In this document: in pieces, positions 20,589-54,600 of the stretch
How the letters are laid out: each line of letters opens with the position of its first letter
How positions within the stretch are numbered: position 1 is the stretch's first letter
Assembly: GCA_963812945.1 (NCBI GenBank)
Contig: CAWEXD010000008.1
Location: 2,356,001 to 2,420,000 of the forward strand
Length of the DNA: 64,000 bases
Reading direction: 5' to 3'
DNA from: DASRDR01 sp963812945 [NCBI: uncultured Candidatus Rokubacteria bacterium]
GTDB taxonomy: Bacteria; Methylomirabilota; Methylomirabilia; Rokubacteriales
Position numbers and translations under genes: made by a program
The notes under the pieces: model-generated
Told to the model about the DNA's origin: nothing
Database searches by the model: none
What the model saw: the letters and a program-made list of their open reading frames with translations, nothing else

Positions 20589-20682
20589 GGGGTCAGACTT
20601 TGACATAGGGACAATTCGCGTCGCGCGCGTCGCGTACCAGGGCCATTCCCCCGGAACTGTCCCGAAGTCAAAGTCTGACCCC
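20589..20682. repeat. Dispersed inverted-repeat element, copy 1 (94 bp)
   Basis: A perfect 16-bp terminal inverted repeat: GGGGTCAGACTTTGAC at 20589-20604 and its complement at 20667-20682. Weaker pairing continues inward (GGGACAATTC against GGGACAGTTC). The right end abuts the TAG stop (20683-20685) of the minus-strand anti-sigma gene. Related copies are at 47176 and 54463. The element resembles REPIN or MITE-type sequences moved by REP-associated tyrosine transposases; no transposase is in the window. Confidence 0.85.
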
Positions 20683-21468
20683 CTACAGGACCTTGCCGTG
20701 GAGGTGCATCGGCCCGGTCGGCTTGGGGACCCCGCCGGCAGGCTCGAGCGTGACCGCGAAGGCGTCGAAGGTGTGGTCCGGAGGGAGCGGCGGGAGGCGG
20801 AGGAGCGCCCGTCCCGCGGCATCCACCGTGAACACGCCAGCGGGGACGGGCTGGGCGCCGGCGAGCGCCCAGAGCTCGTAGGCCTTTCCTTCGGGCGCGG
20901 CCGGCAGCCCGCGCGCGAGAAGGAGGCCCTGCCGGGTCGCCGGGTTCCAGAGGAGCCACGCGCTGGCCTCCGGCGTCGGCTTGAGTCCGGCCAGGCTCAC
21001 GTAGCGCACGCTCGGGTCCGACAGGAACCGAACGACCTGCTCGCGCTCGGCGAGCTCGCCATGGAGCGCGGCGACCCGCCCCTCGAGAGCCCGGATCTCC
21101 TCCCGTGTCCTCGACAGCTCGGCGTTGACGACGACCAGGAGGGCGGCCGCCGCCGCCAGCCCCGCCCAGCCCGCCCACCAGAGGACGCGGCCACGGCGAC
21201 GCTCCGGCCGGAGAAGGACGGGGGCGCCCACGGCGGGCCGCTCCGCCGCGACACGCTCGAGGACGCGCGCCCGGAGAGCGGGCGGCGGCGGGACCTGGGG
21301 CAGCGCGCGCGGCATGACCGCGAGCGCCTCGCGGGTCTCGCGAAGCCGCTCCGCGCAGGTTGCGCAGCCCGAGGCGAGGTGGGCCTCGAACTCCGCCAGC
21401 TCCGCGCCGTCGAGTGCGCCGAGCGCGTAGACGTCGGCCGCCTGCTCGAGCCTCGGGTCGTGGTTCAC
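20683..21468 (-). CDS. RskA-like membrane anti-sigma factor
   Basis: A 261-residue anti-sigma factor for the ECF sigma encoded just upstream. The N-terminal sigma-binding domain carries a zinc-finger-like HLASGCATC (His30, Cys35, Cys38; one residue longer than the common HX3CX2C). A Pro-rich linker, one TM helix (about 95-115), a short coiled coil (about 118-145) and an extracytoplasmic RskA C-terminal domain (about 155-261, with WLLWNP, YELWAL and FAVTLEP) follow. GTG 21468 overlaps the sigma stop (GTGA). The membrane anchor implies release of the sigma factor by an envelope signal, probably by regulated proteolysis as in the family. Confidence 0.9.
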   Translation of the reverse strand: MNHDPRLEQAADVYALGALDGAELAEFEAHLASGCATCAERLRETREALAVMPRALPQVPPPPALRARVLERVAAERPAVGAPVLLRPERRRGRVLWWAGWAGLAAAAALLVVVNAELSRTREEIRALEGRVAALHGELAEREQVVRFLSDPSVRYVSLAGLKPTPEASAWLLWNPATRQGLLLARGLPAAPEGKAYELWALAGAQPVPAGVFTVDAAGRALLRLPPLPPDHTFDAFAVTLEPAGGVPKPTGPMHLHGKVL

Positions 21469-22034
21469 CGGGCTCCCCTCCCCGTTGCCAGCGCGCCCCG
21501 GAGACGCTCGAGTCCGCTGCGCATGCGTGTCTTCACGGTCCCGAGCGGCTCGCCCAGGCGCGCGGCGATCTCGCTCTGCGTGAGCCCGTCGAAGTACGCG
21601 AGCTCGAGGACACTCCGCTGCGCCGCCGGGAGGTCCGCGAGCGCCCCCCCCAGGGTCGCGCGCGCCTCCGCCGGTCCTGCCGCGCTCTCCTGCACAGCCG
21701 GCTCAGGCAGCCGATCCGGATTGTCCGCCGGTCGCACCATCTCATCGCGTCTACGTCTAGAACGAAGTTTGTCGATGCCACGGCTCCGCGTCATCGTGAT
21801 GAGCCACGCCTCCGGCGTGCCCCGGTCGGTGCTGTAGCTCTCGGCCTGCCGCCAGACCTGGAGGAACACGTCCTGCACGACCTCCTCCGCCTCGCCGCGC
21901 TCGCGGAGGATCCTCAGCGCGAACGTGTGCACGAGGGCGGCGTGGAGATCGTAGAAGCGGGCGAAGGCGTCGCGGTCGCCTCGCGCTACGTCCCTGAGGA
22001 GCCGGACCGAGGCGTCCGGCGCGCCCGTCCCCAT
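21465..22034 (-). CDS. ECF RNA polymerase sigma factor (SigK/ECF19-like)
   Basis: A 189-residue extracytoplasmic-function sigma factor. Sigma region 2 (about 22-90) has FYDLHAALVHTFALRIL and EEVVQDVFLQVWR. Region 4 (about 128-180) has RSVLELAYFDGLTQSEIAARLGEPLGTVKTRM, the helix-turn-helix recognising the -35. It is co-translated with its RskA-type anti-sigma. The gene is divergent from the DUF4331 operon across a 248-bp gap. It is therefore likely to autoregulate and to drive that operon, by analogy with SigK-RskA pairs. The promoter motif was not identified with confidence. Confidence 0.92.
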   Translation of the reverse strand: MGTGAPDASVRLLRDVARGDRDAFARFYDLHAALVHTFALRILRERGEAEEVVQDVFLQVWRQAESYSTDRGTPEAWLITMTRSRGIDKLRSRRRRDEMVRPADNPDRLPEPAVQESAAGPAEARATLGGALADLPAAQRSVLELAYFDGLTQSEIAARLGEPLGTVKTRMRSGLERLRGALATGRGAR

Positions 22035-22282
22035 GCTGAGTGGTGTAGCAGAGGGACTCGGCCTCCGGCAAGTGCGAAACCGTCAGCCCCCGCGAAGCGC
22101 CGCAGAAACGCCGAACTCGGCAATCCGCTCGGGCTTGGTCACCCGTAGAAAAGGCGGAGCTTTGCCCGCGTCGCACCGACCCGATCCGCCCCGCCACGGC
22201 TCCCGCCCGACAGATCCGCAGTCTCCGCCCCGGCCGTAGTGACGGCGAGGCAAGGCCTCGCATCTCACTCCGGGAGGTCACC
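22035..22282. other. Divergent intergenic region between sigma factor and DUF4331 gene
   Basis: A 248-bp non-coding gap that should hold promoters for both directions. Towards the sigma gene, TTGCCG and TACACC (18-bp spacing) end close to the ATG at 22034 as a weak sigma-70-like pair. Towards DUF4331, the leader has a 7-bp hairpin (GCGAGGC 22245-22251, GCCTCGC 22255-22261, loop AAG) just before the GGGAGG ribosome site at 22272-22277. No convincing ECF-type promoter could be read by eye. Confidence 0.4.
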
Positions 22283-23785
22283 ATGGAACGTGTTAGGCAT
22301 CGCTCCCCCACCCACGCTCTCGCCGGTCTCATGATTCTCCTCCAGCTGCTGGCCGTCGTCGGCTCCGCCGGCGCGGCCAGCCACCGGGAGGCGCCGCTGA
22401 TCGCACTCGATCCGGCGGCCGACATCACCGACGTGTACTTCTTCCGCAGCTGGACGGACCCGTCCAAGGTCGTCCTCGTCATGAACGTGATCCCCGGGCA
22501 GGAGCCGAGCTCCGGCCCCAACTACTTCAACTTCGACGACCAGGTGCGCTACGCGTTCCACCTCGACACCAACCGCAACGGGACGGCGGAGAACGTCGTC
22601 TACGAGATCCGCTTCAAGACGCGGATCCAGGGGGTGGTGAAGCAGCTGCAGCTGCCGGTGGGGTACGCGGCGGTGCCGCCGATCACGGCCCTGTCCGGGC
22701 CCAACGCGGCCGGCATCGGCATCCGCCAGACCTACACCGTGACCGAGATCCGGAACGGCCGCCGGCGCGAGCTGGGCACGCAGCCGGAAATGGTCGCGGT
22801 GCCCTCGAACATCGGCCCCTTGACTACGCCGAACTACGAGGCGCTGGCCGCGCAGGGCATCTACCCCTTGTTGAACGGCGGGCGCGTCTTCGCCGGGCAG
22901 CGGGACGAGACCTTCTACATCGACCTCGGCGCGACGTTCGACACGGTCAATCTCCGGCGGACTCCGCCGATCCTCAACGCCAACGAGGACGCGGACGACA
23001 CCGCCAACCCGTTCGGCGTCGACACGTTCTCCGGGTTCAACGTGAACACGATCGCCCTCGAGATCCCGATCGAGGAGCTCACCGGCAACCCGAGCGCCGT
23101 GCTCGGGCTCTACGCCTCGACGAGCCGCTCGAAGAACCTCCACCGGAAGGACGACGGCACGTCGTTCGGCTCGGGGGGCTGGGTGCAGGTTGCGCGCATG
23201 GGGAACCCGCTCGTCAACGAGCTCATCATCCCCACGGACCGGAAGGACCGGTGGAACGCGACCGACCCCAAGGACGAGGCGCAGTTCGTCAACTTCTACC
23301 TGAACCCGAGCCTGGCCGCCGTCCTGAACCTTCGGTTCAACACCGCGTTCCCGACCGCGGGGCGCACCGACCTGGTCGCCACGCTCCTCCAGTACGACGG
23401 CGACGGCACCTGCGGGAAGAACGACCGGTGCTCGGAGCTCCTGCGGCTGGACATCAGCGTCGCCCCGACGGCGCCCGTCGATCAGAAACGGCTGGGCGTC
23501 CTCGCGGGGGACAACGCCGGCTTTCCGAACGGGCGGCGGCCGAACGACGACGTGACCGACATCGCCCTCCGGGTGGTTGGTGGGATCCTCGTCGCCGACG
23601 ACCCGACTGCCTTCCCCCGGCTCGGCGACGGCGTGAACTTCAACGTCGGCGCCGAGGGCTCGTTCCTGACCGCGAACGGCATCTACGGGCAGTTCCCGTT
23701 CCTGCCGACGCCCCACGGCGGGCGGAGCCCGCTCCACATGGATTGCGGCGAGCAGGCGCTCTATCCGGCCGTGAACCCCTGCTGA
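22283..23785 (+). CDS. Exported DUF4331 family protein
   Basis: A 500-residue protein with a Sec signal peptide (about 1-32, cleavage near GAA/SHREAP). The mature start SHREAPLIALDPAADITDVY is the DUF4331 hallmark. Later landmarks are FNFDDQVRYAFHLDTNRNG, DLGATFD and NVNTIALEIP. Cys residues near the C-terminus (GTCGKNDRC, MDCGE) may form disulfides. The function of DUF4331 is not established; members are often encoded beside ECF sigma factors and TPR proteins. The ATG is 6 bases after GGGAGG. It is the first gene of a five-gene + strand run with TPR, NicO, NiCoT-like and repeat lipoprotein genes. Confidence 0.88.
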   Translation: MERVRHRSPTHALAGLMILLQLLAVVGSAGAASHREAPLIALDPAADITDVYFFRSWTDPSKVVLVMNVIPGQEPSSGPNYFNFDDQVRYAFHLDTNRNGTAENVVYEIRFKTRIQGVVKQLQLPVGYAAVPPITALSGPNAAGIGIRQTYTVTEIRNGRRRELGTQPEMVAVPSNIGPLTTPNYEALAAQGIYPLLNGGRVFAGQRDETFYIDLGATFDTVNLRRTPPILNANEDADDTANPFGVDTFSGFNVNTIALEIPIEELTGNPSAVLGLYASTSRSKNLHRKDDGTSFGSGGWVQVARMGNPLVNELIIPTDRKDRWNATDPKDEAQFVNFYLNPSLAAVLNLRFNTAFPTAGRTDLVATLLQYDGDGTCGKNDRCSELLRLDISVAPTAPVDQKRLGVLAGDNAGFPNGRRPNDDVTDIALRVVGGILVADDPTAFPRLGDGVNFNVGAEGSFLTANGIYGQFPFLPTPHGGRSPLHMDCGEQALYPAVNPC

Positions 23786-23801
23786 GTCTCATTCCCTGAC
23801 A

Positions 23802-23837
23802 CCGGCGCCGGCGGGGCCTGTACCTCGCCGGCGTCGG
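23802..23837 (+). terminator. Hairpin after DUF4331 gene
   Basis: CCGGCGCCGGCG (23802-23813) pairs with CGCCGGCGTCGG (23826-23837) with one mismatch, 17 bases after the stop. No T-run follows. It could attenuate read-through into the TPR gene or stabilise the DUF4331 mRNA end. Confidence 0.45.
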
Positions 23838-23852
23838 CACGGAGCGACGTGC

Positions 23853-25193
23853 ATGGATACCGTGACGGCTCGATCGAGGCGCTGCACTCGGGCGATCGCG
23901 CTCGTGGTCGCGATCCTCAGCCTTGGGGGCCTTGGCAGCCTCGGGGCCGGTCCCGCACGGGCGGACGACGGGAGCGCCGACCGCGCCATCGCCGCCTACC
24001 GGCGCGGGCTTCAGCGCCGCCCGACCGACCCGTGGACCCACTACCGGCTCGGCGACGCGTACGTGCAGAAGTTTCGCGCCACCGCCGACCCGAGCTGGCT
24101 CGCGCTCGCCGAGCGGGCGCTTCGGCAGTCGCTCGCGCTGGAGCCCGAGCAGGCGAGCGCGCGGCGCCATCTCGCGTACGTCCTCTACTCGCGCCACGAG
24201 TTCGACGACGCCGCCCGGGAAGCCGCGCGCGCGCTGGCGGTCGATCCCAAGGACAGCCACGCCTGGGGAGTCCTCGGGGACGCGCACCTCGAGGTCGGGC
24301 GCTACGTCGATGCGGAAGCCGCGTACCGCCAAATGCTCGAGGCGGGGGACGACCTCTACGCCCACTCGCGGAGCGCGGCCCTCAGGAGCCTGCGCGGGGA
24401 CGTGGCGGGCGCCATCCGGGCCCTCGAGTTGGCGCTCGCGCGCGGCCGGGCGGAGGGGCGGCCCGCCGAGGCCCTCGCCTGGGTCGAGTGGCAGCTCGGC
24501 CAGGAGCACTGGAGCTGGGGCGATCTCGACGCCGCCGAGCGCGCTTACCGCGCGAGCCTCACCACGATCCCGGGCTACCATCGGGCCCTCGCCGGGCTCG
24601 CCCAGGTGCTCTCGGCGCGGGGTCAGGGCTCCGAGGCCGTGCCGCTCCTCGAGCAGGCGATCGCCGTGGTCCCGCAGCTCGACTACGTGGTCGCCCTCGG
24701 CGACCTCCACGCGGCTCTCGGCCAGCCGGACGTCGCGGAGCGCCAGTACGCCTTGGCCGAGCACATCGGCCGGCTGAGCGCGCTCAACCAGGTCCTCTAC
24801 AACCGCGAGCTGGCCTGGTTCTACGCGGATCACGACCGGCGGCTCGACGAGGCGCTCCGGCTGGCGCGGCGGGAGCTCTGGACCCGGCAGGACGTCCATG
24901 CGCACGACCTCCTCGCGTGGACGCTCTACAAGGCAGGGCAGCCCGAGGCCGCGCGGGCCCCGATGGCCGAAGCCCTCCGGCTCGGAACCCGGGACGCCCG
25001 CCTCTTCTACCACGCGGGGATGATCGAGCGGGCGCTCGGGAACACGGAGGCCGCGGCGGCGTACCTCAGGCAGGCGCTCGCCACGAATCCTCGCTTCCAT
25101 CCACGTCACGCCGACGACGCGCGGCGCGCCCTCGAGGCGCTCGACGGCGCCGGGGCGTCTCGGTCGCGTCTCGAGGGCTCCGATGCGAGCTAG
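23853..25193 (+). CDS. Exported tetratricopeptide-repeat protein
   Basis: A 446-residue protein with an N-terminal hydrophobic signal (about 12-37, ending near ARADD). About nine TPR-like helix pairs follow; examples are [42 protein letters not shown] and [26 protein letters not shown]. It is most likely a periplasmic scaffold for protein-protein contacts. It lies between DUF4331 and the NicO transporter and overlaps the latter by 11 bp, so the three are coordinated. No catalytic domain is visible. Confidence 0.85.
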
Positions 25194-26838
25194 CCGGCTG
25201 GCCGGCCTCCTCGCGGTGCTCGTCCTGGTCGCGCCGGACTCGGCGAGCGCCCATCCAATGGGCAACTTCAGCATCAGCCACTACGCCGCGATTCGCGTCG
25301 AGCCCGACGGCGTGCGCCTCCGGTACGTCCTCGACCTCGCGGAGATCCCGGCGTTCCAGGCGCTCCAGGCCGAGGGGCTTTCGGCCGAGCCCGAGCATCC
25401 CGGCGTCCGGGCCTATCTCGCCCGCGCCGTGGAGGCCCTTGCGGACGGGCTCACCGTCGAGCTCGACGGCCGGCGGCTCCCGCTCCGGAGCGAGGGAGCC
25501 GAGCTCATCTTCCCGCCGGGCGCGGGCGGGCTGCCGACCCTCAAGCTCGGGGTGGTGTACCGCGCCGCGCTGCCCCGCGGCGACGGGCCGTCCACGGCGG
25601 TCCTCGGCTACCGGGACGGCAACTACCCGGAGCGGGCGGGCTGGAAGGAGATCGTCGCGACCGCCGCACCAGGCGTGACGCTCGTCGCCAGCACCGTGCC
25701 CGAGCACGATCGGAGCCGCGAGCTCAGCGACTACCCGACCGACCCGGCCGAGGTCCCGCCGCAGGCGCTCGAGGCCCAGGTCGTCTTCGCGCGCGCGACT
25801 GTCCCGACCCCGGTCGCCACCTTGGCGCCGCCGGCGAGGCGACCCGAGAACCCGGGACCGCCCGGATCCGAGGGTGCCGCACCGTCGCCTCCCGCCCGGA
25901 CGAGGCGCGCGAGCCCGCCCGCGGAGGGACCCGCGCTTGCCAATTCCCTCGAGACGGACAGCAGCACCGCGCCCGCCGCCCCGGAGACGCGTGGCCTCAG
26001 CGCGAACGTGCGGCGGACGCCGCGCGACGCGTTCACCGCCCTGATCGCCGGCGGATCGCTCGGGCCGGGCACGCTCCTGTTCGCGCTCGCGGTGGCGGCC
26101 AGCCTGGGCGCCCTCCACGCGCTCGAGCCCGGTCACGGCAAGACCGTCGTCGCCGCGTACCTGGTGGGGTCGAGGGGGACGGCCGGCCACGCGCTCCTCC
26201 TCGGGCTCGTGGTGACCGCGTCCCACACGGTGGGGGTGTACCTCCTGGGTGCGGTCACGCTCTACGCCTCGCGTCACGTCGTGCCGGAGCGCCTGTATCC
26301 GTGGCTCGGCGCCCTCTCGGGGGTCCTCATCGTCTGCTTGGGCGCGAGCCTCCTGTACCGGCGTCTCGCCGGCTCCCTGAAGGCCACGAGCGGCCATGCG
26401 CTCGACCACAGCCACGAGCATGGGGCGCTCGCCCAGTCCGAGCACGAGGCGGCGCACGCTCACGGGCTCGAGCACGACCACGGCCACGGTCACCATCACC
26501 ACCACGTCCCCGACGGACCGGTCTCGCTCCGGGCCCTCGTCGCTCTCGGCGTGTCGGGAGGCATCGTGCCCTGCCCCGCGGCCCTGGTGGTGCTCCTAAG
26601 CGCCGTCGCGATGGGCCGGATCGGCCTGGGCCTCCTTCTGATCGTGGCCTTCAGCGTGGGACTCGCCGCCGTCCTGATCGCGATCGGCCTCCTCGTCGTC
26701 TACGCCCGGCGGCTGGCGGCACGCTTTGGCCGCGCCGGGGTGGAGGGCCCACTGGTGCGGCGCTGGCTCCCCCTCACCTCCGCGGCGGTGATCACCCTGT
26801 CGGGCGTCGTGATCACCGTCCAGGCGCTCGGCGGCTGA
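25183..26838 (+). CDS. NicO-family nickel/cobalt transporter with periplasmic N-domain
   Basis: A 551-residue protein. A signal-like helix (about 5-22) is followed by [11 protein letters not shown] and a soluble domain (about 23-235), a Pro-rich linker, and a polytopic NicO/RcnA-type domain from about 285. Signature stretches are [12 protein letters not shown] (about 307-318) and [14 protein letters not shown] (about 456-469). A His/Asp/Glu-rich cytoplasmic loop (about 404-443) is a plausible metal-sensing or metal-delivery segment. NicO proteins export or import Ni2+/Co2+; direction cannot be decided here. The start ATG overlaps the TPR gene. Confidence 0.85.
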
Positions 26839-26876
26839 CGCTCCCGTCCGCAACTCCGGCTGAAGGAGGATTCTCC

Positions 26877-27569: not shown

Positions 27570-27580
27570 CACGGCCGCAG

Positions 27581-27597
27581 GCGGTCAATCCGACCGC
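27581..27597 (+). terminator. Small hairpin after NiCoT-like gene
   Basis: GCGGTC (27581-27586) and GACCGC (27592-27597) with a 5-base loop, 11 bases after the stop. No T-tract. It may separate the transporter message from the lipoprotein gene. Confidence 0.3.
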
Positions 27598-27668
27598 GGC
27601 GAGCCGCTCGTAGACCCGGGTAGACGCACACCCCAAGCAATCACCCGGAACACGAGGAGGACACGGAC

Positions 27669-28907: not shown

Positions 28908-28933
28908 CGGTTCGACGCGCGGTCCAGAAGCAC

Positions 28934-30526: not shown

Positions 30527-30539
30527 GTGAAGGCTCCGT

Positions 30540-39717: not shown

Positions 39718-40092
39718 GGACGGAGGGGCGCCCCGGGCCCAGACCGCGCCGCCCGTCCATGGCCTCACCCCGCGAGTCTAGGGCCCGCCTCCCCGCGGGT
39801 CTGTAGCGCTCGATACCAACCCGCGGGCCTGGTGGGAGGCTGTGCCGGGCCGGCCGTCGTCCCAACCCCCCTGAATTGTCAGGCCAGACCCGAGACGCCG
39901 GGCCGACCCGGAGATCGGCGGCCCCGGCGAGTTTGGTATCGCCCGCTACAGATGCGGCCCGGGGCCGGCTTTACGCTGGTCTCCGCCCACATGACCGCCA
40001 CCCTGGCCGCCAGTTGATCGCCACCTGAACGCCACCTGAACGGCAGTCGGCCGGCGACGCCCCGTCGTCGGCCAGAAGAGCGGGAGGCCCAC
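39718..40092. other. 375-bp intergenic region upstream of the TRAP operon
   Basis: No credible gene. It contains a 9-bp hairpin CCCGCGGGT / ACCCGCGGG (about 39793-39826), which overlaps the left arm of a 151-bp inverted-repeat region. Just before the DctP gene there is an 11-bp tandem repeat (CGCCACCTGAA twice, 40019-40040). The latter could be a regulator site. Ribosome site candidate: GGGAGG at 40081-40086. Confidence 0.5.
39801..39951. repeat. 151-bp region bounded by 21-bp imperfect inverted repeats
   Basis: The arm CTGTAGCGCTCGATACCAAC (39801-39820, plus one C) and the arm at 39931-39951 (GTTTGGTATCGCCCGCTACAG read forward) are inverted repeats matching at 18 of 21 positions. The interior is GC-rich with several possible small stems and no reading frame of note. 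It could be a miniature element or a structured leader RNA of the TRAP operon. Only one copy is present here. Confidence 0.55.
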
Positions 40093-44247: not shown

Positions 44248-45621
44248 ATGACGCGGAGCTTCGAGGATCAGATCCAGGCCACGCGGGGCGGGTCGGGCGC
44301 GTGGTACGCGCGCGCCAAGCAGGCGATCGGCGGTGGCCTCGGCCACGACGTGCGGCACGCTTTGCCCTTCCCCACCTACATCGCCCGGGCGCAGGGCGCC
44401 TACAAGTGGGACGTGGACGGCCACCGGTACATCGACTATCACGTCGGGAACGGCGCGCTCCTCCTCGGCCACGCCCATCCGGCCATCGTGGAGGCCGTGA
44501 TCAAGGCGGCCCCGCTCGGCACCCACTTCGGCAACGACCACCCGCTCCAGGTCGAGTGGGCCGAGCGGATCCAGTCGCTGGTGCCGTGCGGCGAGCGCGT
44601 ACGCTTCACGAACTCGGGCACGGAGTCCGACATGCTGGCCTGCCGAGTGGCGCGGGGGCACACGGGCCGGCCGACGATCCTCCGCTTCGAGGGTCACTTC
44701 CACGGGTGGGGTGACGAGCTCCTGACCGGCTACGCGCCGCCTTTCGACGTGCCGCCGTCGATCGGGCTCGCGCCGGGATTCCGCCTCGGCACCGTGATGA
44801 CGCCCGCCAACGACCTCGAGGAGGTCGACCGGATCCTCCGGCAGCGCGGTGACGTCGCCGCGGTGATCCTCGAGCCGAGCGGCGGGTCGTGGGCCCGGCT
44901 TCCGCTCCGGCCGGGGTTCCTGGCAGGACTCCGCGACGTGACCCGGCGCCACGGGACGCTCCTCATCTTCGACGAGGTCATCACCGGCTTCCGCTGGGCG
45001 CCGGGCGGGGCTCAGGAGCGATCCGGCGTGACGCCGGACCTCTCGACCCACGCCAAGATCGTGGGGGGCGGCGTCCCCGGCGCCGCGATCTGCGGGCGCG
45101 CCGACGTCATGCGCGTCTTCGACATCACGGGGGACGCCTTCCACGACCGCTTCCGCCGCATCGCGCATCAGGGCACCTACAATGCCTCTCCGCTGACGGC
45201 AGCGGCGGGGCTGGCCTGTCTCAACATCGTGGCCACCGGCGAGCCGACGCGCCGGGCGGACGCCCTCGCCGAGCGGCTCCGCGCCGGGCTGAACGGCGTG
45301 CTCGAGCGCCGCGCGATCCGGGGGCTCGTCTACGGGGAGAGCTCGGTCTTCCACATCTACCTGGAAGCGCCGGACGCCCGGCTGGGGGTGTCGCGCCCCG
45401 AGGACTACCGCTGGCTCGATGCCGTCACCCTCAAGAGCATGGACCCCGGCCTGGTGCGGGCGCTCCAGAACGGCTTCCGCGTGCGCGGCGTCGAGCTCCT
45501 CTCCTACAACGGCGGCATGACGTCGGCCGCCCACGAGGAGCAGGACATCGACGAGACGGTCGCCGCCTTCGACGACCTAGTCGGCGAGCTTCTCGCCGGC
45601 AACATGCTGGCACGCCGGTAG
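44248..45621 (+). CDS. Class III aminotransferase, glutamate-1-semialdehyde aminomutase-like
   Basis: A 457-residue PLP enzyme of the HemL/GSAM branch. It has FTNSGTESDMLACRVARGHTGRP, FEGHFHGWGDE, and the DEVITGFRWAPGG segment that carries the PLP-binding Asp. The Schiff-base Lys is in DLSTHAKIVGGGVPGAA, and HQGTYNASPL follows. It lacks the usual heme neighbours, so a secondary aminotransferase or aminomutase role is likelier than tetrapyrrole synthesis. ATG 44248 follows GGGGAGCGAGAG. A short fragment of a related gene lies just upstream. Confidence 0.86.
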   Translation: MTRSFEDQIQATRGGSGAWYARAKQAIGGGLGHDVRHALPFPTYIARAQGAYKWDVDGHRYIDYHVGNGALLLGHAHPAIVEAVIKAAPLGTHFGNDHPLQVEWAERIQSLVPCGERVRFTNSGTESDMLACRVARGHTGRPTILRFEGHFHGWGDELLTGYAPPFDVPPSIGLAPGFRLGTVMTPANDLEEVDRILRQRGDVAAVILEPSGGSWARLPLRPGFLAGLRDVTRRHGTLLIFDEVITGFRWAPGGAQERSGVTPDLSTHAKIVGGGVPGAAICGRADVMRVFDITGDAFHDRFRRIAHQGTYNASPLTAAAGLACLNIVATGEPTRRADALAERLRAGLNGVLERRAIRGLVYGESSVFHIYLEAPDARLGVSRPEDYRWLDAVTLKSMDPGLVRALQNGFRVRGVELLSYNGGMTSAAHEEQDIDETVAAFDDLVGELLAGNMLARR

Positions 45622-45669: not shown

Positions 45670-46194
45670 ATGACGCGCGAACCGTCCTCCGTCCGTCCAG
45701 TCCGATTTCCAGCCGAGTACGGGACGCCGGGAAGCCCGGACAGCCTTCTCCCCTGGAGCTACGTCGAAGGGCGTCTCCGAACCGCGTCGAACTACTGGAT
45801 CACGACCGTCGGGCCGCGCGCGCGGCCGCATGCCCGGCCGGTCGACGGCGTCTGGATCGACGGCGCGCTGTGCTTCGGTGGATCGCCGGAGACGCGCTGG
45901 GTGCGCAACGTCATGGCCAATCCCTCGATCTCCGTCCATCTCGCGAGCGAGGCGGAGGCGATCATTCTTGAAGGCACCGCCCAGCTCGTCACGGACCCTT
46001 CGCACCCTCTCGCCGAGCCATCCATGGCGGCTTCGAAGGCGAAGTACCCGCAATACTTCTCCGGAGATGCGGCGCCATTCCGGCCGTTCTGGGCGCTCCG
46101 GCCCACCACGGCCTTCGCCTGGACCCTCGAGGGCTTCCCGCGAGGCGCGACGCGCTGGCGCTTCGAGAACAGGTCCAGGGGGCCGCAGGCCTAG
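45670..46194 (+). CDS. Pyridoxamine 5'-phosphate oxidase-family (split-barrel flavin) protein
   Basis: A 174-residue split beta-barrel protein of the PPOX / F420-dependent reductase superfamily. ASNYWITTVGPRARPHARPVDGVWIDGALCFGG is the FMN- or F420-binding core. SISVHLASEAEAIILEGTAQLV and a C-terminal AWTLEGFPRGATRWRF strand pair follow. The cofactor cannot be fixed from sequence, but the next gene is an LLM-type oxidoreductase. The two are convergent and share the 4-bp palindrome CTAG for their stop codons. Confidence 0.8.
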   Translation: MTREPSSVRPVRFPAEYGTPGSPDSLLPWSYVEGRLRTASNYWITTVGPRARPHARPVDGVWIDGALCFGGSPETRWVRNVMANPSISVHLASEAEAIILEGTAQLVTDPSHPLAEPSMAASKAKYPQYFSGDAAPFRPFWALRPTTAFAWTLEGFPRGATRWRFENRSRGPQA

Positions 46195-47201
46195 CGGAAC
46201 GCGGGCAGGACCTCCCGCGCCAGGAGCTCGAGCTGGCGCAGGATCGTCGCGTGCGGCATGCCGGGCGTGAAGAGCCGGAAGATCACGTGGGTCATGCCGT
46301 ACTGGCGGACATAGGGCTCGAGGTCGCGGACGATCCGGTCGGGCGTGCCGATGAGGAACCGGTCCACCGCCAGCCGGTCGAGGTCGGCCGCCGTCGCGGC
46401 GTCGACGAACGGGTGCTTCCAGGTCCCGCCGTACTCCTTGCCGTACGCGAGCATGAGATGGCGGTCGGCCAGCTCGCGCGCTGCGTGCTCGGTCTCGGCG
46501 ATGCAGAGCTCGCGCGTGACGGGCCACTCGCCCGGCGGGGGGAGCCCGGCCGCCCGCCGGTGCTCGAGGATGCGGGCCTGGCTGCGGAGCAGACGCGGTA
46601 GATCGGCCGTAGGTCCCGGAAGCCACGCGTCGGCGAGGAGCGCGGCGCGCCGGAGCGTCACGTCCCCCCAGCCGCCGATCCACACGGGCGGGTGGGGCCG
46701 CTGGACGGGCTTCGGCTCGATCCGCCCGTCGACCACCGTGAAGTGCTCGCCCCGGTGGGTCACGCCGTCGCGGGTCCAGAGCGCCTTCATCAGGGCGAGG
46801 CCCTCCTCGAACCGGGCGCCGCGCTTCTCGAGGGCCGCGTCGTAGAGCTGGAACTCGTCGGGCTTGTAGCCGATCGCGACGCCGAGCACGGCCCGGCCGT
46901 TCGAGACGACGTCGAGCAGCGCCGCCTCCTCCGCGAGCCGCACGGGGTGGTAGAAGGGAAACACGCACACGTTGGCCCCCAGCTGGACGCGCGACGTCCG
47001 CGCCGCGAGCGCGGTCAGCATCTGGACCGGCGCCGGCCAGTAGTGGTCGCGGACCCCGTGGTGCTCGGCGAGCCAGACGGAGTCGAAGCCGAGCGCCTCG
47101 GCCCGCTCGACCTCCGCCAGCGCCTCCCGGAAGAAGTGGCCGCCCTCGGTGGGGCAGATCCCGAACTTGAGCCGCGGGGTCAGACTTTGATTTCCGGACA
47201 T
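46191..47201 (-). CDS. LLM-class (luciferase-like) F420/flavin-dependent oxidoreductase
   Basis: A 336-residue TIM-barrel oxidoreductase: LKFGICPTEGGHFFREALAEVERAEALGFDSVWLAEHHG, then RTSRVQLGANVCVFPFYHPVRLAEEAALLD and the FEEGLALMKALWT segment. Such proteins use F420 or FMN as dehydrogenases or monooxygenases. The only start is ATG 47201, which lies inside the left arm of the inverted-repeat element. The first nine or so residues (MSGNQSLTP) are therefore element-derived, and the family sequence begins at LKFGI. No Shine-Dalgarno is visible, so translation may be weak or coupled to upstream translation. It follows a NitT/TauT-type transporter operon. Confidence 0.86.
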   Translation of the reverse strand: MSGNQSLTPRLKFGICPTEGGHFFREALAEVERAEALGFDSVWLAEHHGVRDHYWPAPVQMLTALAARTSRVQLGANVCVFPFYHPVRLAEEAALLDVVSNGRAVLGVAIGYKPDEFQLYDAALEKRGARFEEGLALMKALWTRDGVTHRGEHFTVVDGRIEPKPVQRPHPPVWIGGWGDVTLRRAALLADAWLPGPTADLPRLLRSQARILEHRRAAGLPPPGEWPVTRELCIAETEHAARELADRHLMLAYGKEYGGTWKHPFVDAATAADLDRLAVDRFLIGTPDRIVRDLEPYVRQYGMTHVIFRLFTPGMPHATILRQLELLAREVLPAFR

Positions 47202-47282
47202 TTCACTGGCCCGAGAGCGACCGGGGGGCCCGACGAGGCGTCTGCCGCTGTCGAAAGTGTCCGGAAGTCAAAGTCTGACCCC
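47176..47282. repeat. Dispersed inverted-repeat element, copy 2 (107 bp)
   Basis: The left end GGGGTCAGACTTTGAT is at 47176-47191 and the complement of GGGGTCAGACTTTGAC is at 47267-47282. Pairing continues through TTCCGGACA, giving arms of about 29 bp with two mismatches. The right end lies 2 bases from the stop codon of the ABC ATPase (47285-47287). The left arm contains the start codon of the LLM oxidoreductase at 47199-47201. Related copies are at 20589 and 54463. Confidence 0.88.
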
Positions 47283-47284
47283 CT

Positions 47285-48064
47285 TCAGTACCGCAGCACG
47301 CCGCGGGCGCGGAAGAGGTCGGTGATGGCCTTCTGGTATGCGGCGAAGCTCGGCGACTCCTGGACCTCCAGCCGGCGCGGGCGCGGCAAGTCGATGTCGA
47401 GGATCCCGTCGACCCGTCCCGGCCGCGGCGACATGACCACGACCCGGTCGGACAGCAGGACCGCCTCGGGGATCGAGTGCGTGATGAACACGACCGTCTT
47501 CCGGCGCTCGAGCCAGAGCCGCTCGATGTCGAGCCGCATCTGCTCGCGCGTCAAGGCGTCGAGCGCGCCGAACGGCTCGTCCATGAGGAGCAGCGGTGGG
47601 TCGTGGATGAGCGCCCGGCAGATCGCGGCGCGCTGTCGCATCCCGCCCGACAGCTCGAACGGGTACTTGTCCTCGAACCCCTCGAGACCGACGGCCAGCA
47701 GAAGCTCCCGCGCCTTCGACCGGTGGGAGGCGAGGTCGAGCCCCCGCGCCTCGACCTGCAGGAGCACGTTCCGGATCACGGTGCGCCAGTCGAGGAGCAC
47801 GGGGTTCTGGAACACGATCCCCACGTCGGTCTGCGGACGCGTGACCCGCTGACCGGCCACCCGGATCTCGCCCGACGACGGCGCGAGGAGCCCGGCGATC
47901 ATGAGGAGCAGCGTGCTCTTGCCGCAGCCGGAGGGGCCCAGGATGGACAGGAACTCCCCGGCGGGCACGTCCAGGGAGACCTGCTCCACCGCGTGGACAA
48001 GCCCGTCCGACGACGGGTAGGTCTTGGAGACCCCGGTGATCTCGATCAGCGGGCGCGGGGGCAC
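47285..48064 (-). CDS. ABC transporter ATP-binding protein (SsuB/TauB/NitT type)
   Basis: A 259-residue ATPase of the nitrate/sulfonate/taurine-type importer class. Walker A GPSGCGKST is at about 44-52, the signature LSGGMRQR at about 142-149, and Walker B LLLMDEPFGALD at about 162-173, followed by ITHSIPEAV. The stop codon lies 2 bases from the inverted-repeat element. Permease, cupin, binding protein and ATPase are encoded in this order on the minus strand. Confidence 0.9.
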   Translation of the reverse strand: MPPRPLIEITGVSKTYPSSDGLVHAVEQVSLDVPAGEFLSILGPSGCGKSTLLLMIAGLLAPSSGEIRVAGQRVTRPQTDVGIVFQNPVLLDWRTVIRNVLLQVEARGLDLASHRSKARELLLAVGLEGFEDKYPFELSGGMRQRAAICRALIHDPPLLLMDEPFGALDALTREQMRLDIERLWLERRKTVVFITHSIPEAVLLSDRVVVMSPRPGRVDGILDIDLPRPRRLEVQESPSFAAYQKAITDLFRARGVLRY

Positions 48065-48107
48065 AGCGACTCTGGCCCCCGCGCCCGGCGGCGCGACGAG
48101 CGCCCTC

Positions 48108-49103: not shown

Positions 49104-49134
49104 GTCTCCCCTCCCCTGCCGGCCTTTGGCCCCG

Positions 49135-49497: not shown

Positions 49498-49541
49498 CTC
49501 CTTCGCGAGCCTCGTCGCCCGCGACGCCTCTGGATCATACC

Positions 49542-50390
49542 CTAGAGCCCACCCTCAGCGCCGAGCGGGCCCCGCCGCGAGACGTGCCACGGGATGGCCA
49601 GCCGCTCGAGCGCGACCATCAGGAAGTAGAGGACGAGCCCGATGGCGGTCAGCACGATGAGCGTGGCGAACAGGAGCTCGGTGCGGAGGTCGCCGCCCGC
49701 CACCAGGAGGAGATAGCCGAGGCCGCGGTCCGAGCCGACGAACTCGCCGATGATCGCCCCGACCGTGGCGAGGGTGATCGCGACCTTGAGCCCCGCGAAG
49801 ATCTGGGGCAAGGCGTGCGGGAGCCGCACCTTGACGAAGGCCGGCCACGCCCCGAGGCCCATCGAGCGCGTCAGGTACTCGATCTCGCGGTCCAGCGAGC
49901 GGAACCCCGCGACCGCGTTGATCACGATGGGAAAGAACGAGAGCAGGAACGTCATAAACACCTTGGGAAAGAGACCGAAGCCGAACCAGATGATGAAGAG
50001 GGGCGCCAGGGCGATCTTCGGCACGAGCTGGGTGAACACGAGAACCGGCATGACCACCCGCTCCACCGCCCGCGAGAAGGCCACCGCCATGCCACACGGC
50101 ACGCTCACGACGACGGCGAGCAGGAAGCCGAGGGCGATCTCGCCGAGAGTCGTCAGGGCGTGCTGGGCCAGGAGGGGGGCGCGGACGTACATCTCCGTCA
50201 GCGTCGCATACGGCGTGGGCAGGATGTACCGCGGGACCCTGAGCCCGACGAGCTGCCAGGCGAGCAGGATCAGGAGAAACGCGACCGTCGTCTGCGCGTA
50301 CCCGATCCAGCGTCCTTGGCGCCCGTCGCGCCCACGCCGCCCGGCGCGGGTCCCCCGGGCCGGCTTCTCCCCGTTTCCCAGCGTTCCCAC
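49542..50390 (-). CDS. ABC transporter permease (SsuC/TauC type)
   Basis: A 282-residue polytopic permease with a basic, soluble N-terminus of about 30 residues and six helices. The EAA-like cytoplasmic loop (SLDREIEYLTRSMGLGAWPAFVKVRLPHALPQIFAGLK) identifies BPD inner-membrane components. It is the first gene of the transport set (permease, cupin, receptor, ATPase). Start at GTG/ATG 50390 after the DHDPS-family gene (stop 50428). Confidence 0.88.
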   Translation of the reverse strand: MGTLGNGEKPARGTRAGRRGRDGRQGRWIGYAQTTVAFLLILLAWQLVGLRVPRYILPTPYATLTEMYVRAPLLAQHALTTLGEIALGFLLAVVVSVPCGMAVAFSRAVERVVMPVLVFTQLVPKIALAPLFIIWFGFGLFPKVFMTFLLSFFPIVINAVAGFRSLDREIEYLTRSMGLGAWPAFVKVRLPHALPQIFAGLKVAITLATVGAIIGEFVGSDRGLGYLLLVAGGDLRTELLFATLIVLTAIGLVLYFLMVALERLAIPWHVSRRGPLGAEGGL

Positions 50391-50427
50391 GTGGCCTCTG
50401 CGCCCCGTCCGCGAAGCGCCCCCGCCG

Positions 50428-51348
50428 TTACGCCGCGAGCAGCCCGGCGTGGACCAGGAGCCGCCGGATCGTGCGCCGCTCGTCGTCCGCGAGCGGCATG
50501 AGCGGCGGGCGCACGGCCGCCGAGCGAAGGACGCCGAGCATGACCAGCGCCTCCTTGAGCCGCGGGCGATAGTCGCGCAGCGGCGGGCTCCACATCATCC
50601 GCGCCATGGGGCCGATGCGGTCCCAGATCGCCAGCGCCTGCTGATAGTCCTTCTGCTGGACGGCCTCGAACATCTTCACCTGGAGATCGAGCGCGATCGC
50701 GCCGAAGCCGATCAGCGCCCCGTGCGCGCCCAGGATGTACGCCTCGCAGAGGAAGGTGTCGCTGCCGGTCAGCACCGCGAGGGGCTTCGGCGCGTCGCGG
50801 AGCGCCTGGAGCGTGTCGACCAGCCGGGCGGCGTCGAAGGTGGCCTCCTTCATCGCGACCACCTCGGGGATCTCGGCGAGCCGGCACAGCGCCTCGTTCG
50901 AGTAGGACGGGCCGAGGCCGCGCGCGAACTGGAACAGGCAGAGCGGCAGGCCCGTCGCCTCGGCGATCGCCCGGTGGTACTCGAACGGGAGGCGCCACGG
51001 GAGCGGCTCGCCCATGAAGGTCGGAACCGGCGGGAAGACCGCAAGCCCCTGCGCGCCCGCCCGCGCGAGCGCCTGGGCCTGCTGGACCGCCTCCCGCGTC
51101 GAGCCCGCGATGAGCCCGCTCCAGACCGGGCAGCGCCCGTCGGCCGCCTCCCGCGAGACTTCGATGACCCGGAGGCGCTCCTCGACGGAGAGCGAAGGCC
51201 CCTCGGCGGCGTCCATGTTCATCGCGATCGCGGTCGGGCCTTGCGGGACGAGCCACCGGAGGTAGTCGCGAAGGCCCGTCCAGTCGACGTCGAAATCCTC
51301 GGTCATGGGCAGGACCGGCGCCGCGACGATGCCGCGGATCAGCTCCAT
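50428..51348 (-). CDS. DHDPS/NAL-family protein with altered active site
   Basis: A 306-residue TIM-barrel protein of the dihydrodipicolinate synthase / N-acetylneuraminate lyase family. The Schiff-base Lys is kept in VAMKEATFD (about 158-166). The catalytic Tyr in the usual LYNVP stretch is replaced: the sequence reads LCLFQFARG, with Phe. The Thr-Thr of GTTGES is replaced by an AAEG stretch. The chemistry is therefore not standard DapA. ATG 51348 has AGGAG nine bases before it; an upstream TTG would add 7 residues. It is upstream of the ABC permease. Confidence 0.78.
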   Translation of the reverse strand: MELIRGIVAAPVLPMTEDFDVDWTGLRDYLRWLVPQGPTAIAMNMDAAEGPSLSVEERLRVIEVSREAADGRCPVWSGLIAGSTREAVQQAQALARAGAQGLAVFPPVPTFMGEPLPWRLPFEYHRAIAEATGLPLCLFQFARGLGPSYSNEALCRLAEIPEVVAMKEATFDAARLVDTLQALRDAPKPLAVLTGSDTFLCEAYILGAHGALIGFGAIALDLQVKMFEAVQQKDYQQALAIWDRIGPMARMMWSPPLRDYRPRLKEALVMLGVLRSAAVRPPLMPLADDERRTIRRLLVHAGLLAA

Positions 51349-51408
51349 ACGGTCCATCTCCTCTCGCAACGGAGCTCGGTGAGCGCGCGGCTCGCTCGAC
51401 GCGACGGC

Positions 51409-51426
51409 CGGGCGAGGGGTCGCCCG
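51409..51426 (-). terminator. Hairpin between LysE and DHDPS-family genes
   Basis: CGGGCGA (51409-51415) pairs perfectly with TCGCCCG (51420-51426) around a GGGG loop. It is about 75 bases after the LysE stop on the minus strand. No T-tract. The rest of the 153-bp gap (51349-51501) has no other recognisable signal. Confidence 0.38.
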
Positions 51427-51501
51427 ACCTGGAGCAGATCGCCCTGGGCCGCCGTCGCCCGTCCGGCCGCGATGAGTCGCGACATGCGACCAGCCCTCAG
51501 G

Positions 51502-52143
51502 CTACTTCCGGCCGTCGCCGGCGAGCGCCGCCGTCACCCCGAGGCCGACGAACACGCTCCCGCTGACGTACCGCTCCGCGCGGAGGAGCCGTCCGTCGCG
51601 CTTGACCCATGCTCCGGCGGTGCCGGCCGCCACCGCATAGAGGCCGTCGCTGATCACGCCGAGCGCCACGAAGACCAGTCCCAGGGCCAGGATCTGGACG
51701 CCGACGGCGCCCCTCGACACGTCGACGAACTGCGGGAGGAACGCCAGGAAGAAAAGCGCGGTCTTCGGGTTCAGGACGTTCACCACGATGCCCTGGGTGA
51801 AGAGCCGCCGGAGGCTGTGCGGGGCGAGCGCCCGTCCCTCGACGGCCTGATCCCATCCCAGGAGCTTGCGGGCGCCGAGGTAGATCAGGTAGAGCGCGCC
51901 GAGATACTTCACGACGCTGAACGCGAGCGCCGACGAAACCAGGAGCGCCGACAGCCCGAGGGCGGCCGCCGCGACGTGGACGAGCGTGCCCACGTGGACG
52001 CCGAGCGCCGAGACCAGCCCGGCCAGCCGTCCCTGCTCGACGCTGCGGGCGACGATGTAGAGCACCGCGGGGCCGGGAGTGAGGAGCAGCACGAGCGCCG
52101 CCACGACGAACAGCCCCACCACCGACGCCTCCGGGACGACCAC
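51502..52143 (-). CDS. LysE/RhtB-family amino acid exporter
   Basis: A 213-residue polytopic exporter with about six helices. The family motif LTPGPAVLYIVARSVEQGRLAGLVSALGVHVGTLVH begins near residue 21, and the middle QGIVVNVLNPKTALFFLAFLPQFV is highly typical. Such proteins export amino acids or related compounds in exchange for protons. It lies 50 bp after the MoaD-like gene, separate in function. The start is GTG 52143. Confidence 0.88.
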   Translation of the reverse strand: MVVPEASVVGLFVVAALVLLLTPGPAVLYIVARSVEQGRLAGLVSALGVHVGTLVHVAAAALGLSALLVSSALAFSVVKYLGALYLIYLGARKLLGWDQAVEGRALAPHSLRRLFTQGIVVNVLNPKTALFFLAFLPQFVDVSRGAVGVQILALGLVFVALGVISDGLYAVAAGTAGAWVKRDGRLLRAERYVSGSVFVGLGVTAALAGDGRK

Positions 52144-52192
52144 GCGGGTTCCTCCGTGACTTGGGTGGCCGGCGCCGCCGACCGTTCTACGC

Positions 52193-52525
52193 CTAGCCGC
52201 CCATGTACTGGCCGAGCAGGGTGACGCGCTCGCTCTCGAGCACCTCGCTGTCGAGGTCGTGGCTCACGCCGAGGACGGCGTTGTTCACGAGGACCTCGAT
52301 GTTGTCGCCGAGCTCCTGGGGCCGCGTGGGATCCCAGAGGGCGCGCCCCAGCTCTGGATAGCGGTCGGAGATCGCCCGGAGGACGGCGCGGACGCTGGCG
52401 CCCTTCGGCACGGTCACGTCCTCCGCCTTCTCACCCGTCCCCGGCCCCCCGACGAGCTGGTTGACCCAGGAGAGCACCTCGACGCGCACCGTGATGGGGC
52501 GCGTCGCGACGGGGGTCCCGCTCAC
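52193..52525 (-). CDS. aorD: MoaD/ThiS-like sulfur carrier (AorD-like)
   Basis: A 110-residue ubiquitin-fold protein with the C-terminal diglycine tail (QYMGG) needed for thiocarboxylation in pterin or thiamine sulfur transfer. Internal landmarks are VSVRAVLRAISDRYPEL-like and LVNNAVLGVSHDLDSEV. The start GTG 52525 overlaps the stop of the AOR subunit gene (GTGA). This places it with the Aor operon, where a dedicated MoaD-like protein for the tungstopterin cofactor is known (AorD). The assignment is by context and fold. Confidence 0.82.
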   Translation of the reverse strand: MSGTPVATRPITVRVEVLSWVNQLVGGPGTGEKAEDVTVPKGASVRAVLRAISDRYPELGRALWDPTRPQELGDNIEVLVNNAVLGVSHDLDSEVLESERVTLLGQYMGG

Positions 52526-54447
52526 CGGCGGCCGCCCCACACCGCGGGAATCATCCACTCGAGCCCGAGGGCCCGCAGCGTCTCGGCCGTCGGCCGCCCG
52601 CTGGCGCGGTCGTACCCCATCCCCTCGTACCAGAGGTCGACCATCCGGTCCCAGTGCTTCTCGATCGACTGCCCCTTCGCCGGACCGTCGATCGGCGTCG
52701 ATCCGTAGCGCTTGGACGGCCGCTCCAGCTCGTTCCCGATCCCGCAGCGGAGGTTGAACGCGCGGAAGATCGCCCCGATGCGGCGGCCGAAGCGCATGGC
52801 CTCCTCGCGCGAGTACTGCCAGCCGGTCGCCGCCGACAGGGTGCGCGCGAGGTTCTCGAGGTGCGTCCGGGTCGTGAAGATGCAGGCCCCGAGCGAGTCC
52901 TCGAAGTTCCGTCGCCCGTTCAGCGCGGCGACCTGGCGCGCCACCTGCTCGGGGTCGAACGGGTTGATGCGAGCGGGCAGGCCGAGCTCGGCCGGGTGGA
53001 CCGCCGGCCCGGTCTCGAGCGTACCGGTCGAGCCGGTGCAGGTGTCGAGCATCTCCTCCCAGCGCCCGCGGTGGTCGTGACCGCGCGGCGACGCGTTCTT
53101 GCCGGTGTAGATCGCGCACTCGAGCGCCCCGCCGCCCAGCCGCTCGGCGGCGAGCTTCGTGCCCTCGGCCAGGATGTCGCCGAGTCCCTCGCGGCGGCTG
53201 AGCATCCCCAGGAGCCGGTTCGCCCCCTCCGCGTCACCCCAGGCGAGCCGGAAGCCGAGCTGCTGCTCGGTGATGTAGCCCTTCTCCTGGCACTCCATCA
53301 CGAAGCCGCAGAGCCAGCCGAACTCGTTCACGTCGACGCAGGCCCGGTCGATCTGCGTGTTCAGCCAGGAGACGGCGACGGGGTCCGTGCACCCGATCGT
53401 CCAGCCGGCCCCCGACCACCCCTCGTACTCGGGCTCGTCGACGATCTGGCCCTTGTGCTTGCCGCTCGGAAGCACCTGCATGTGGCAGTGGTGCATGCCG
53501 CAGGCGTTGCACTGATGCCCGCGATGGTCGAACCCATTCCGGAGCGCGGGCGCCTCCCACTGCTTCATGTCGACGCCGGCCGGCGCGACGTTCGTCGTGT
53601 AGTTCTTGATCGGCAGCGCCCCGAGCGCGCCCAGGTTCACGACGCCCGGCAGCGTGCCGTACTCGTACAAGGTCTTGGCGGCGGGGTTCGTCCGGAGGTC
53701 GTGGGCGATGTCGTCGGCCGCCGCGATGAGCCCGCGGGGGTCCGCCGCGCGGAGCGCGTGACTCCCGCGCACGATCGCCACCGCCTTCAGGCGCTTCTTC
53801 CCCATGACGGCGCCGACGCCGTTCTTGGAGGCGACGTGGCCGTAGTCGCCCTGGATCGCGGCGAAGCGCACCAGGTTCTCGCCGGCGGGACCGATCGAGT
53901 AGACGCTCAGCATGTGGCCAGAGCAGCCGAGCTCGGCGTTGAGCGCGTCCTGCGTCTCCCAGGTGTCCTTGCCGAGGAGGTGGCGGGCGTCGCGCAGCTC
54001 GACGCGGTCGCCACGGATCAGGAGGTAGACCCACTCTGGCGCCTGACCCTGGACCACGATGGCGTCGTAGCCGCAGTACTTCAGGTTGGCGCCGAAGAAG
54101 CCGTTGGCCTGGGTCGACGTGCCGCCGTTCGTCATGGCGCCGCGCGTGACGACGGTGAGGCCCCCGGTCCCCCACACCGGCAGGCCGGCGAGCGGGCCCG
54201 TCCCGAGCACGAGCCGGTTCTCCGGATCGTCCCAATTGACCTCGGCCGGGACCTCGTCCCAGAGGATCTTCGCCCCGAGCCCGGCGCCGCCGAGGTACGT
54301 CCGCATGTCGTCGGGCGACCAGGGCTCGCCCGACGTACGGCCGGCCGAGAGGTCCACGCGGAGAAGCTGCCCCGCGTACCCGCCCGGCAGGCCGGCCCTC
54401 GGAGCCGCCGCCCCCTTCGTCGCCGTTGCCGTCCCTGCCTGCGTCAT
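52522..54447 (-). CDS. aorB: Tungsten aldehyde:ferredoxin oxidoreductase family, catalytic subunit (AorB-like)
   Basis: A 641-residue AOR-family protein. It has an N-terminal bis-pterin binding region (LPGGYAGQLLRVDLSAGRT, TYLGGAGLGAKILWDEV), the GTGPLAGLPVWGTGG and ASKNGVGAVMGKKRLKA stretches, and the iron-sulfur motif CNACGMHHC (about 300-308) with CX2CX4C spacing. Canonical AORs show CX2CX3C. ATG 54447 after CGAGGAG is chosen over an in-frame start 37 codons upstream, which would lie in the inverted-repeat element. It is part of an AorA-AorC-AorB-AorD cluster and oxidises aldehydes to acids, or the reverse. Confidence 0.88.
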   Translation of the reverse strand: MTQAGTATATKGAAAPRAGLPGGYAGQLLRVDLSAGRTSGEPWSPDDMRTYLGGAGLGAKILWDEVPAEVNWDDPENRLVLGTGPLAGLPVWGTGGLTVVTRGAMTNGGTSTQANGFFGANLKYCGYDAIVVQGQAPEWVYLLIRGDRVELRDARHLLGKDTWETQDALNAELGCSGHMLSVYSIGPAGENLVRFAAIQGDYGHVASKNGVGAVMGKKRLKAVAIVRGSHALRAADPRGLIAAADDIAHDLRTNPAAKTLYEYGTLPGVVNLGALGALPIKNYTTNVAPAGVDMKQWEAPALRNGFDHRGHQCNACGMHHCHMQVLPSGKHKGQIVDEPEYEGWSGAGWTIGCTDPVAVSWLNTQIDRACVDVNEFGWLCGFVMECQEKGYITEQQLGFRLAWGDAEGANRLLGMLSRREGLGDILAEGTKLAAERLGGGALECAIYTGKNASPRGHDHRGRWEEMLDTCTGSTGTLETGPAVHPAELGLPARINPFDPEQVARQVAALNGRRNFEDSLGACIFTTRTHLENLARTLSAATGWQYSREEAMRFGRRIGAIFRAFNLRCGIGNELERPSKRYGSTPIDGPAKGQSIEKHWDRMVDLWYEGMGYDRASGRPTAETLRALGLEWMIPAVWGGRR

Positions 54448-54462
54448 CCGCGCTCTCCTCGT

Positions 54463-54600
54463 GGGGTCAGACTTTGACTTCCGGACATTCCCGGCGATCT
54501 CCCCGGACGTATGCTCGGCCTCCCGGTACGCGGGCCCAGCCACGAGGACCTCGCGCAACTTCCGACCCGGCGAACTGTCCCGAAGTCAAAGTCTGACCCC
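54463..54600. repeat. Dispersed inverted-repeat element, copy 3 (138 bp)
   Basis: The left end GGGGTCAGACTTTGAC is at 54463-54478 and its perfect complement at 54585-54600, with the pairing TTCCGGACA against TTCGGGACA continuing inward. It fills nearly the whole 156-bp gap between the AOR start (54447) and the stop of the upstream FAD oxidoreductase (54604). The right end is 3 bases from that stop. It breaks up an otherwise tightly spaced operon. Confidence 0.88.

Follow-up and report, generated by a model that had tools for sequence, protein, structure and literature searches.

Genes resembling those of the transposases associated with repetitive extragenic palindromic sequences (REPs), the RAYTs, and lying between long terminal inverted repeats (TIRs), were described as TIRYTs by Di Nocera et al. 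in 2013, and the elements that contain them as TIRtrons (PMC3733652). TIRYTs are Y1/HUH tyrosine transposases of the IS200/RAYT superfamily, often provided with a C-terminal helix-turn-helix, HTH (PMC3733652, PMC6006769). In the description of 2013, TIRs occur as singles, dimers and clusters, some of them, not all, share the motif GGGGWSAS, and REPs are located in intergenic DNA near the 3' ends of genes (PMC3733652). A phylogenomic study of 2018 gives the motif as GGGG[AT][CG]A[CG], assigns 20 of 26 TIRYTs to subclass 2.1 of the TnpA-REP-like proteins, which carries C-terminal HTH/DnaA_C-like domains, and reports a GT[A/G]G tag at the hairpin foot of canonical REPs (PMC6006769). Although named in 2013, TIRYT elements seem to have had their partner repeats little followed up, the terms being rare in the literature searched. 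Here, a 64-kb stretch of contig CAWEXD010000008.1, from an uncultured Candidatus Rokubacteria bacterium, was analyzed (the window, in the following). It contains three short elements bounded by conserved inverted ends. With good probability, each is a non-autonomous TIR dimer, formed by the end repeat of a TIRtron and dependent on a TIRYT that was not seen.

The 15-mer GGGGTCAGACTTTGA occurs exactly six times in the window, forming three inverted pairs (Table 1). When up to three mismatches are allowed, seven matches are found against 0.79 expected, a number reached by none of 100 shuffles, which rules out a chance origin of the pairs. The ends of the three elements consist of GGGGTCAGACTTTGA(C/T), followed mostly by TTCSGGACA, in inverted arrangement; the same end may be written as GGGGTCAGACTTTGAC paired with its inverse. 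A repeat search also picked up these pairs (I3, I4 and I6), whose arms measure 29, 28 and 25 nt and are complementary at 90, 93 and 96% of positions; the end consensus itself extends over some 29 nt (GGGGTCAGACTTTGAYTTCSGGACANTTC). Copy 1 departs from it in its left arm (ACATAGGGACA), and the arms 2R and 3L deviate in their last few bases. Read inward, the arms start with GGGGTCAGACTTTGACATAGGGACAATTC (1L), GGGGTCAGACTTTGACTTCGGGACAGTTC (1R and 3R), GGGGTCAGACTTTGATTTCCGGACATTTC (2L), GGGGTCAGACTTTGACTTCCGGACACTTTC (2R) and GGGGTCAGACTTTGACTTCCGGACATTCCC (3L). Once 29 nt are trimmed from each end, interiors of 36, 49 and 80 nt are left in copies 1, 2 and 3, whose mutual similarity is at the level of shuffled sequences (p 0.72, 0.34, 0.44). 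As single-stranded DNA, the three units fold far more stably than their shuffles (z -6.79, -7.71, -6.33). The initial annotation of this DNA had reported three loci with shared ends, unlike interiors and a weaker inward pairing of the form TTC(C/G)GGACA: loci and interiors are as it described them, and the inward pairing was recovered at most ends.

Table 1. Coordinates, in the window, of the putative TIR dimers and of the features adjoining them
Feature	Position	Strand	Remarks
Copy 1, putative TIR dimer	20589..20682	.	94 bp, 36-nt interior; flanked by convergent genes
Copy 2, putative TIR dimer	47176..47282	.	107 bp; flanked by genes for an ABC-transporter ATPase and a luciferase-like monooxygenase, both minus
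Copy 3, putative TIR dimer	54463..54600	.	138 bp; flanked by genes for a pyridine-nucleotide oxidoreductase and an aldehyde ferredoxin oxidoreductase, both minus
Altered further end	20532..20565	+	GGGGTCAG, insert GCCCTG (6 nt), then ACTTTGACTTCG, AACG, GTTC
Stop codon, RskA-like anti-sigma gene	20683..20685	-	0 nt from copy 1 right end
Stop codon, ABC-transporter ATPase gene	47285..47287	-	2 nt from copy 2 right end
Stop codon, pyridine-nucleotide oxidoreductase gene	54604..54606	-	3 nt from copy 3 right end
ATG in copy 2 left end	47199..47201	-	listed start codon of the luciferase-like open reading frame (ORF) 46191-47201

The link to TIRYTs comes from the outermost part of the end. Its first eight bases, GGGGTCAG, are present in all six intact ends and match GGGGWSAS; the letters ggggtcagactttga and ggtcaggtcttga were not found in the literature searched. 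Y1 transposases of one subfamily, represented by a consensus beginning MARPLR, are often bordered by GGGGTCAG repeats, and this association was tested on plasmid loci. The loci were chosen by protein similarity: a tblastn search of plasmids gave 27 records, from which 16 loci were fetched, and [A/G]GGGWSAS was sought within 250 bp of each gene, scoring its orientation. The motif was found in the right orientation upstream of the gene at 9 of the 16 loci, inverted downstream at 6 and on both sides at 6, in a set that is partly dependent, as it includes two loci from Skermanella and two from a single Legionella adelaidensis strain, one of them a gene fragment. Wrongly oriented motifs were present in only 2 of 32 flanks, about 0.06 motifs per flank being expected by plain arithmetic; the two cases are an unrelated-looking AGGGTGAC by the R. 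rubrum gene and a reversed GGGGTCAG downstream of the Skermanella rosea gene.

Paired ends flank the genes from Sporomusa (GGGGTCAGGCC), Iodobacter (GGGGTCAGAGCAAA), Pseudoalteromonas (AGGGTCAGAGTTGTTG) and a Pseudomonas plasmid (GGGGACAGATTTATTTTCC). The R. rubrum gene has GGGGTCAGACCCC palindromes on either side, and a Legionella gene (L210) is preceded by AGGGTCAGGCCTTGCC, the inverse of which overlaps the gene end and falls outside the counting rule. On the small plasmid L216, short inverted-end dimers adjoin the TIRYT-like genes, as two nearly identical units of 177 nt (428-604 and 3633-3809) with GGGGACAG-type ends. Eight of nine plasmid proteins scanned exceed the Pfam cut-off for Y1_Tnp, the ninth (L250) staying below it and also having no motif in its flanks. 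REP_Tyr_transpos was the best NCBIfam match in all six plasmid proteins scanned, at 64.5-79 bits, under the cut-off of 80. A C-terminal DnaA_C/HTH-like stretch, such as subclass 2.1 is described to have (PMC6006769), is present in L210 and L214, and an HTH-like one in L248, all under the Pfam cut-offs. On plasmid NZ_CP045419.1 (L215, 659603-664431), 12 of 13 copies of GGGTCAGAGTTGTTG (at most one mismatch) are placed around a Y1 gene, eight upstream and oriented forward, four downstream and oriented back; the reading frame of this gene contains an internal stop.

The reading as TIR dimers is thus based directly on conserved inverted ends, free interiors, the occurrence of three copies that are dispersed, together with one altered end, within the 64 kb, their position between genes in a window of which only about 9% is intergenic (own gene list, elements excluded), and the similarity of their ends to those found beside TIRYT-like genes. 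From these we infer that a Y1 enzyme recognizes the ends, that it moves the elements in trans, and that it reads nothing but the ends, the last being suggested by the unlike interiors. In the proposed mechanism, a TIRYT encoded outside the window would recognize the end beginning with GGGGTCAG and nick single-stranded DNA there, and the paired-end unit would be pasted elsewhere with no target duplication. Since only the ends would be read, the interior would be free to drift or to differ from copy to copy. Surviving copies would be those in narrow gaps just past stop codons, where they do least harm to the host. A further and rather doubtful possibility is that a TIRYT reading some 16-29 nt of the end could mobilize paired ends, or build them up, around any DNA; the interiors would then be captured from the host, with insertion steered just past stop codons and occasionally supplying a new start codon to the next gene. 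Units of this kind, with ends that hardly vary and interiors that are free, would offer a simple set of substrates for defining what the enzyme reads.

Several results weigh against the TIR dimer reading. The partner enzyme was not met in the window: no Y1 transposase was found among its 48 ORF products scanned against Pfam, and a profile of 14 TIRYT-like proteins gave no match in its 962 stop-to-stop segments of at least 25 residues, in agreement with the initial annotation, which had stated that the window holds no such transposase. TIRYT-like queries gave twelve tblastn matches in the window (E up to 1), which were discarded because the profile search did not support them; the best of the twelve, at 45250-45414 with an E value of 0.004, lies in frame inside an aminotransferase ORF. 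Matches to the 19-base end GGGGTCAGACTTTGAYTTC in the genome collection (contigs of at least 3,000 bases) are limited to two, and both are isolated. Among the 16 plasmid loci, the motif is absent from seven (Collinsella, Acetoanaerobium, Paraburkholderia, Nostoc, Cylindrospermopsis, Pseudomonas DTU and Caballeronia), which, Collinsella excepted, encode less similar proteins (at most 36% identity to the query). In a control set of 30 Y1 loci from the Chloroflexota sample, with genes placed by tblastn and flanks treated by the same rule, the motif was found upstream of three, downstream of two and on both sides of none; wrong orientations, at two and three, show this to be background. None of the eight plasmids searched (seven with a TIRYT-like gene, one with a fragment) contains a dimer of exact GGGGTCAG octamers separated by 50-111 nt, in a search that AGGG-type ends would escape. 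Finally, the interiors of the two L216 dimers are nearly identical to each other, unlike those of the window copies.

Because the control loci do not rise above background, the motif accompanies one branch of Y1 enzymes and not all of them. A related set of 40 Y1 loci contained many other inverted repeats, several of them including GTAG; paired GGGGTCAG ends were seen in none.

Among the other explanations, one is that the ends were inserted singly, each being a mobile unit of its own, and that what lies between two such insertions is resident host DNA. The interiors are indeed mutually unlike, published TIRs also occur singly and in groups (PMC3733652), and the altered end close to copy 1 is a case of clustering. 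This seventh end reads GGGGTCAGGCCCTGACTTTGACTTCGAACGGTTC in full and has six additional bases. Its first 15 nt are also the final codons of the ORF 19917-20546, which it overlaps at the 3' end. In addition, the 15-nt sequence CATCTTCGGGGTCAG is present twice: once at the altered end (20525-20539), and again where copy 1 has its left border (20582-20596). Copy 1 thus stands in a small cluster of ends, which may reflect target preference, recombination or coincidence within coding sequence. Insertion of single ends is nevertheless a rather unlikely origin: all three copies are neat inverted pairs, and removal of the element would leave a gap of 18 bp at copy 3 and a similarly very short one at copy 2, which makes it difficult to regard the interiors as the spacers present beforehand.

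The elements may alternatively be seen as miniature inverted-repeat transposable elements (MITEs) of a DDE transposase, derived from an insertion sequence (IS) by loss of its interior and moved by a cut-and-paste enzyme. The long, almost perfect inverted repeats and the free interiors would suit this origin. However, the sequences bordering the elements show no target-site duplication: the two sides of copies 1 and 2 have at most a single base (C) in common, and those of copy 3 none. The lack of a target duplication agrees with the chemistry of Y1 enzymes and disagrees with most DDE MITEs. The end motif is moreover of the kind found at Y1 genes, and the 48 ORF products scanned against Pfam matched no DDE transposase family; a DDE origin is accordingly improbable.

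The position of the copies raises the question of a conserved regulatory hairpin, of RNA or DNA, such as an attenuator, a terminator or a protein-binding stem, selected after stop codons. The right ends of the three copies start 0, 2 and 3 nt past the stop codons of minus-strand genes. Folded as RNA, the three units are very stable (z -8.83, -6.96, -6.71). No Rfam family was matched at the gathering score, however, and the genes adjoining the three copies are mutually unrelated. Stem bases are constant, without covariation, and the differences between the arms of a copy are uncompensated, as far as three copies can tell, so that the conserved RNA with compensatory changes named as an alternative in the initial annotation found no backing. 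Inspection of the flanks, made without a terminator scan, revealed no T-run beyond the stem when read along the transcript of the upstream gene. Given the lack of an Rfam match, the constant stems and the unrelated neighbors, a regulatory RNA is very improbable; the hairpins, if transcribed, would nonetheless be very stable and could plausibly act on mRNA 3' ends as a side effect.

Canonical REPINs, in which a RAYT moves a pair of inverted REPs that each form a hairpin with a GTAG tag, would share paired inverted conserved ends, a variable spacer and, like REPs (PMC3733652), an intergenic location near gene 3' ends, but can hardly be invoked here, since no GTAG/GGAG tag is common to the borders among seven flanks (only 1R ends in GTAG, and those letters belong to the stop codon) and single 29-nt ends (n=3) fold at the level of shuffles (z -1.04, -0.47, 0.72). 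The initial annotation had proposed REPINs or MITEs moved in trans: the part concerning a non-autonomous element with Y1-type ends, carrying GGGGWSAS and flanking Y1 genes elsewhere, is retained, while a strict REPIN, with its tag and the hairpin of its own in each end, is not, and the TIR/TIRYT class provides the better name.

At copy 2 the putative TIR dimer may also have affected a gene. The listed N-terminus of the luciferase-like product, MSGNQSLTP, is encoded by the element, ahead of RLKFGICPTE, and the end of copy 2 may have taken the place of the start codon that this ORF had originally. If element ends do supply start codons to neighboring genes, proteins would be altered too.

The same end was also sought outside the window, together with related ones. 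The two genome matches to the 19-mer were rejected as family members, each locus having no second GGGGTCAGAC, and so were the matches to the 15-mer in viral contigs, none of the 27 loci continuing into the TTCSGGACA consensus; an autonomous element with this very end was thus not seen. Plasmid and phage collections were searched with copies 1-3, though not with every copy against both, and the matches obtained were discarded: a Roseovarius plasmid matches copy 2 over 25 nt at 92% (E 3), with no partner arm, and the single match in the phage collection concerns only the interior of copy 3 (E 5). Inverted GGGGTCAG pairs with a gap of 20-50 are absent from the viral contigs. An inverted pair with a gap of 30-60 was found in 1 of 400 genomes of the Chloroflexota, the phylum of G001 (the genome of locus L029), with the related end GGGGTCAGGTCTTGA. 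The latter has 67 viral loci, mostly isolated matches, at which a profile from 27 Chloroflexota-sample sequences detected no Y1 gene; relatives of a Legionella TIRYT query are likewise absent from the viral contigs.

Some observations concern sequences other than the three elements. Direct arrays of GGGGTCAGGTCTTGA-like units, spaced by about 18-38 bp, are present on phage-like contigs (L096, L125, L133, L134, L135, L136), and one such array sits upstream of a terminase gene. In genome G017 (L064, L068, L069, L070), GGGGTCAGGTCTTGA runs off two contig ends, the following sequence being identical, and AGGGTCAGGTCTTGA is found close to two contig starts, a pattern probably due to a multicopy element collapsed in assembly. 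Within the window, which has 72% GC and a gene content including TctC, TRAP, NMT1, AFOR and luciferase-like genes, reminiscent of Rokubacteria/Methylomirabilota, a separate and unrelated inverted pair, GTAGCGNNCGATACCAA, lies in an intergenic gap at 39803-39949 (two matches against 0.03 expected); it resembles a GTAG-tagged REP dimer and is present in a single copy.

When compared with known systems, the window elements are similar to the MITEs of DDE insertion sequences in being short, non-autonomous and bounded by terminal inverted repeats, from which they differ by the lack of a target-site duplication and by an end motif of a kind known from Y1 elements. With REPINs and the REPtrons of RAYTs they share paired inverted repeats, a presumed Y1-driven movement in trans and a location near gene 3' ends, the differences being the missing GTAG tag and the missing hairpin in the single end. 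With respect to TIRtrons, the end beyond its first 8 nt (ACTTTGACTTCSGGACA) has no partner arm in the collections searched, not all copies having been run against all of them, and the window interiors are unlike one another; published TIR dimers are described in general terms (PMC3733652). The window elements nonetheless have in common with TIRtrons and TIRYTs (PMC3733652; probably those of subclass 2.1, PMC6006769) the GGGGWSAS motif, the inverted repeats, the arrangement in dimers and clusters described for TIRs, and the expectation of a Y1 partner.

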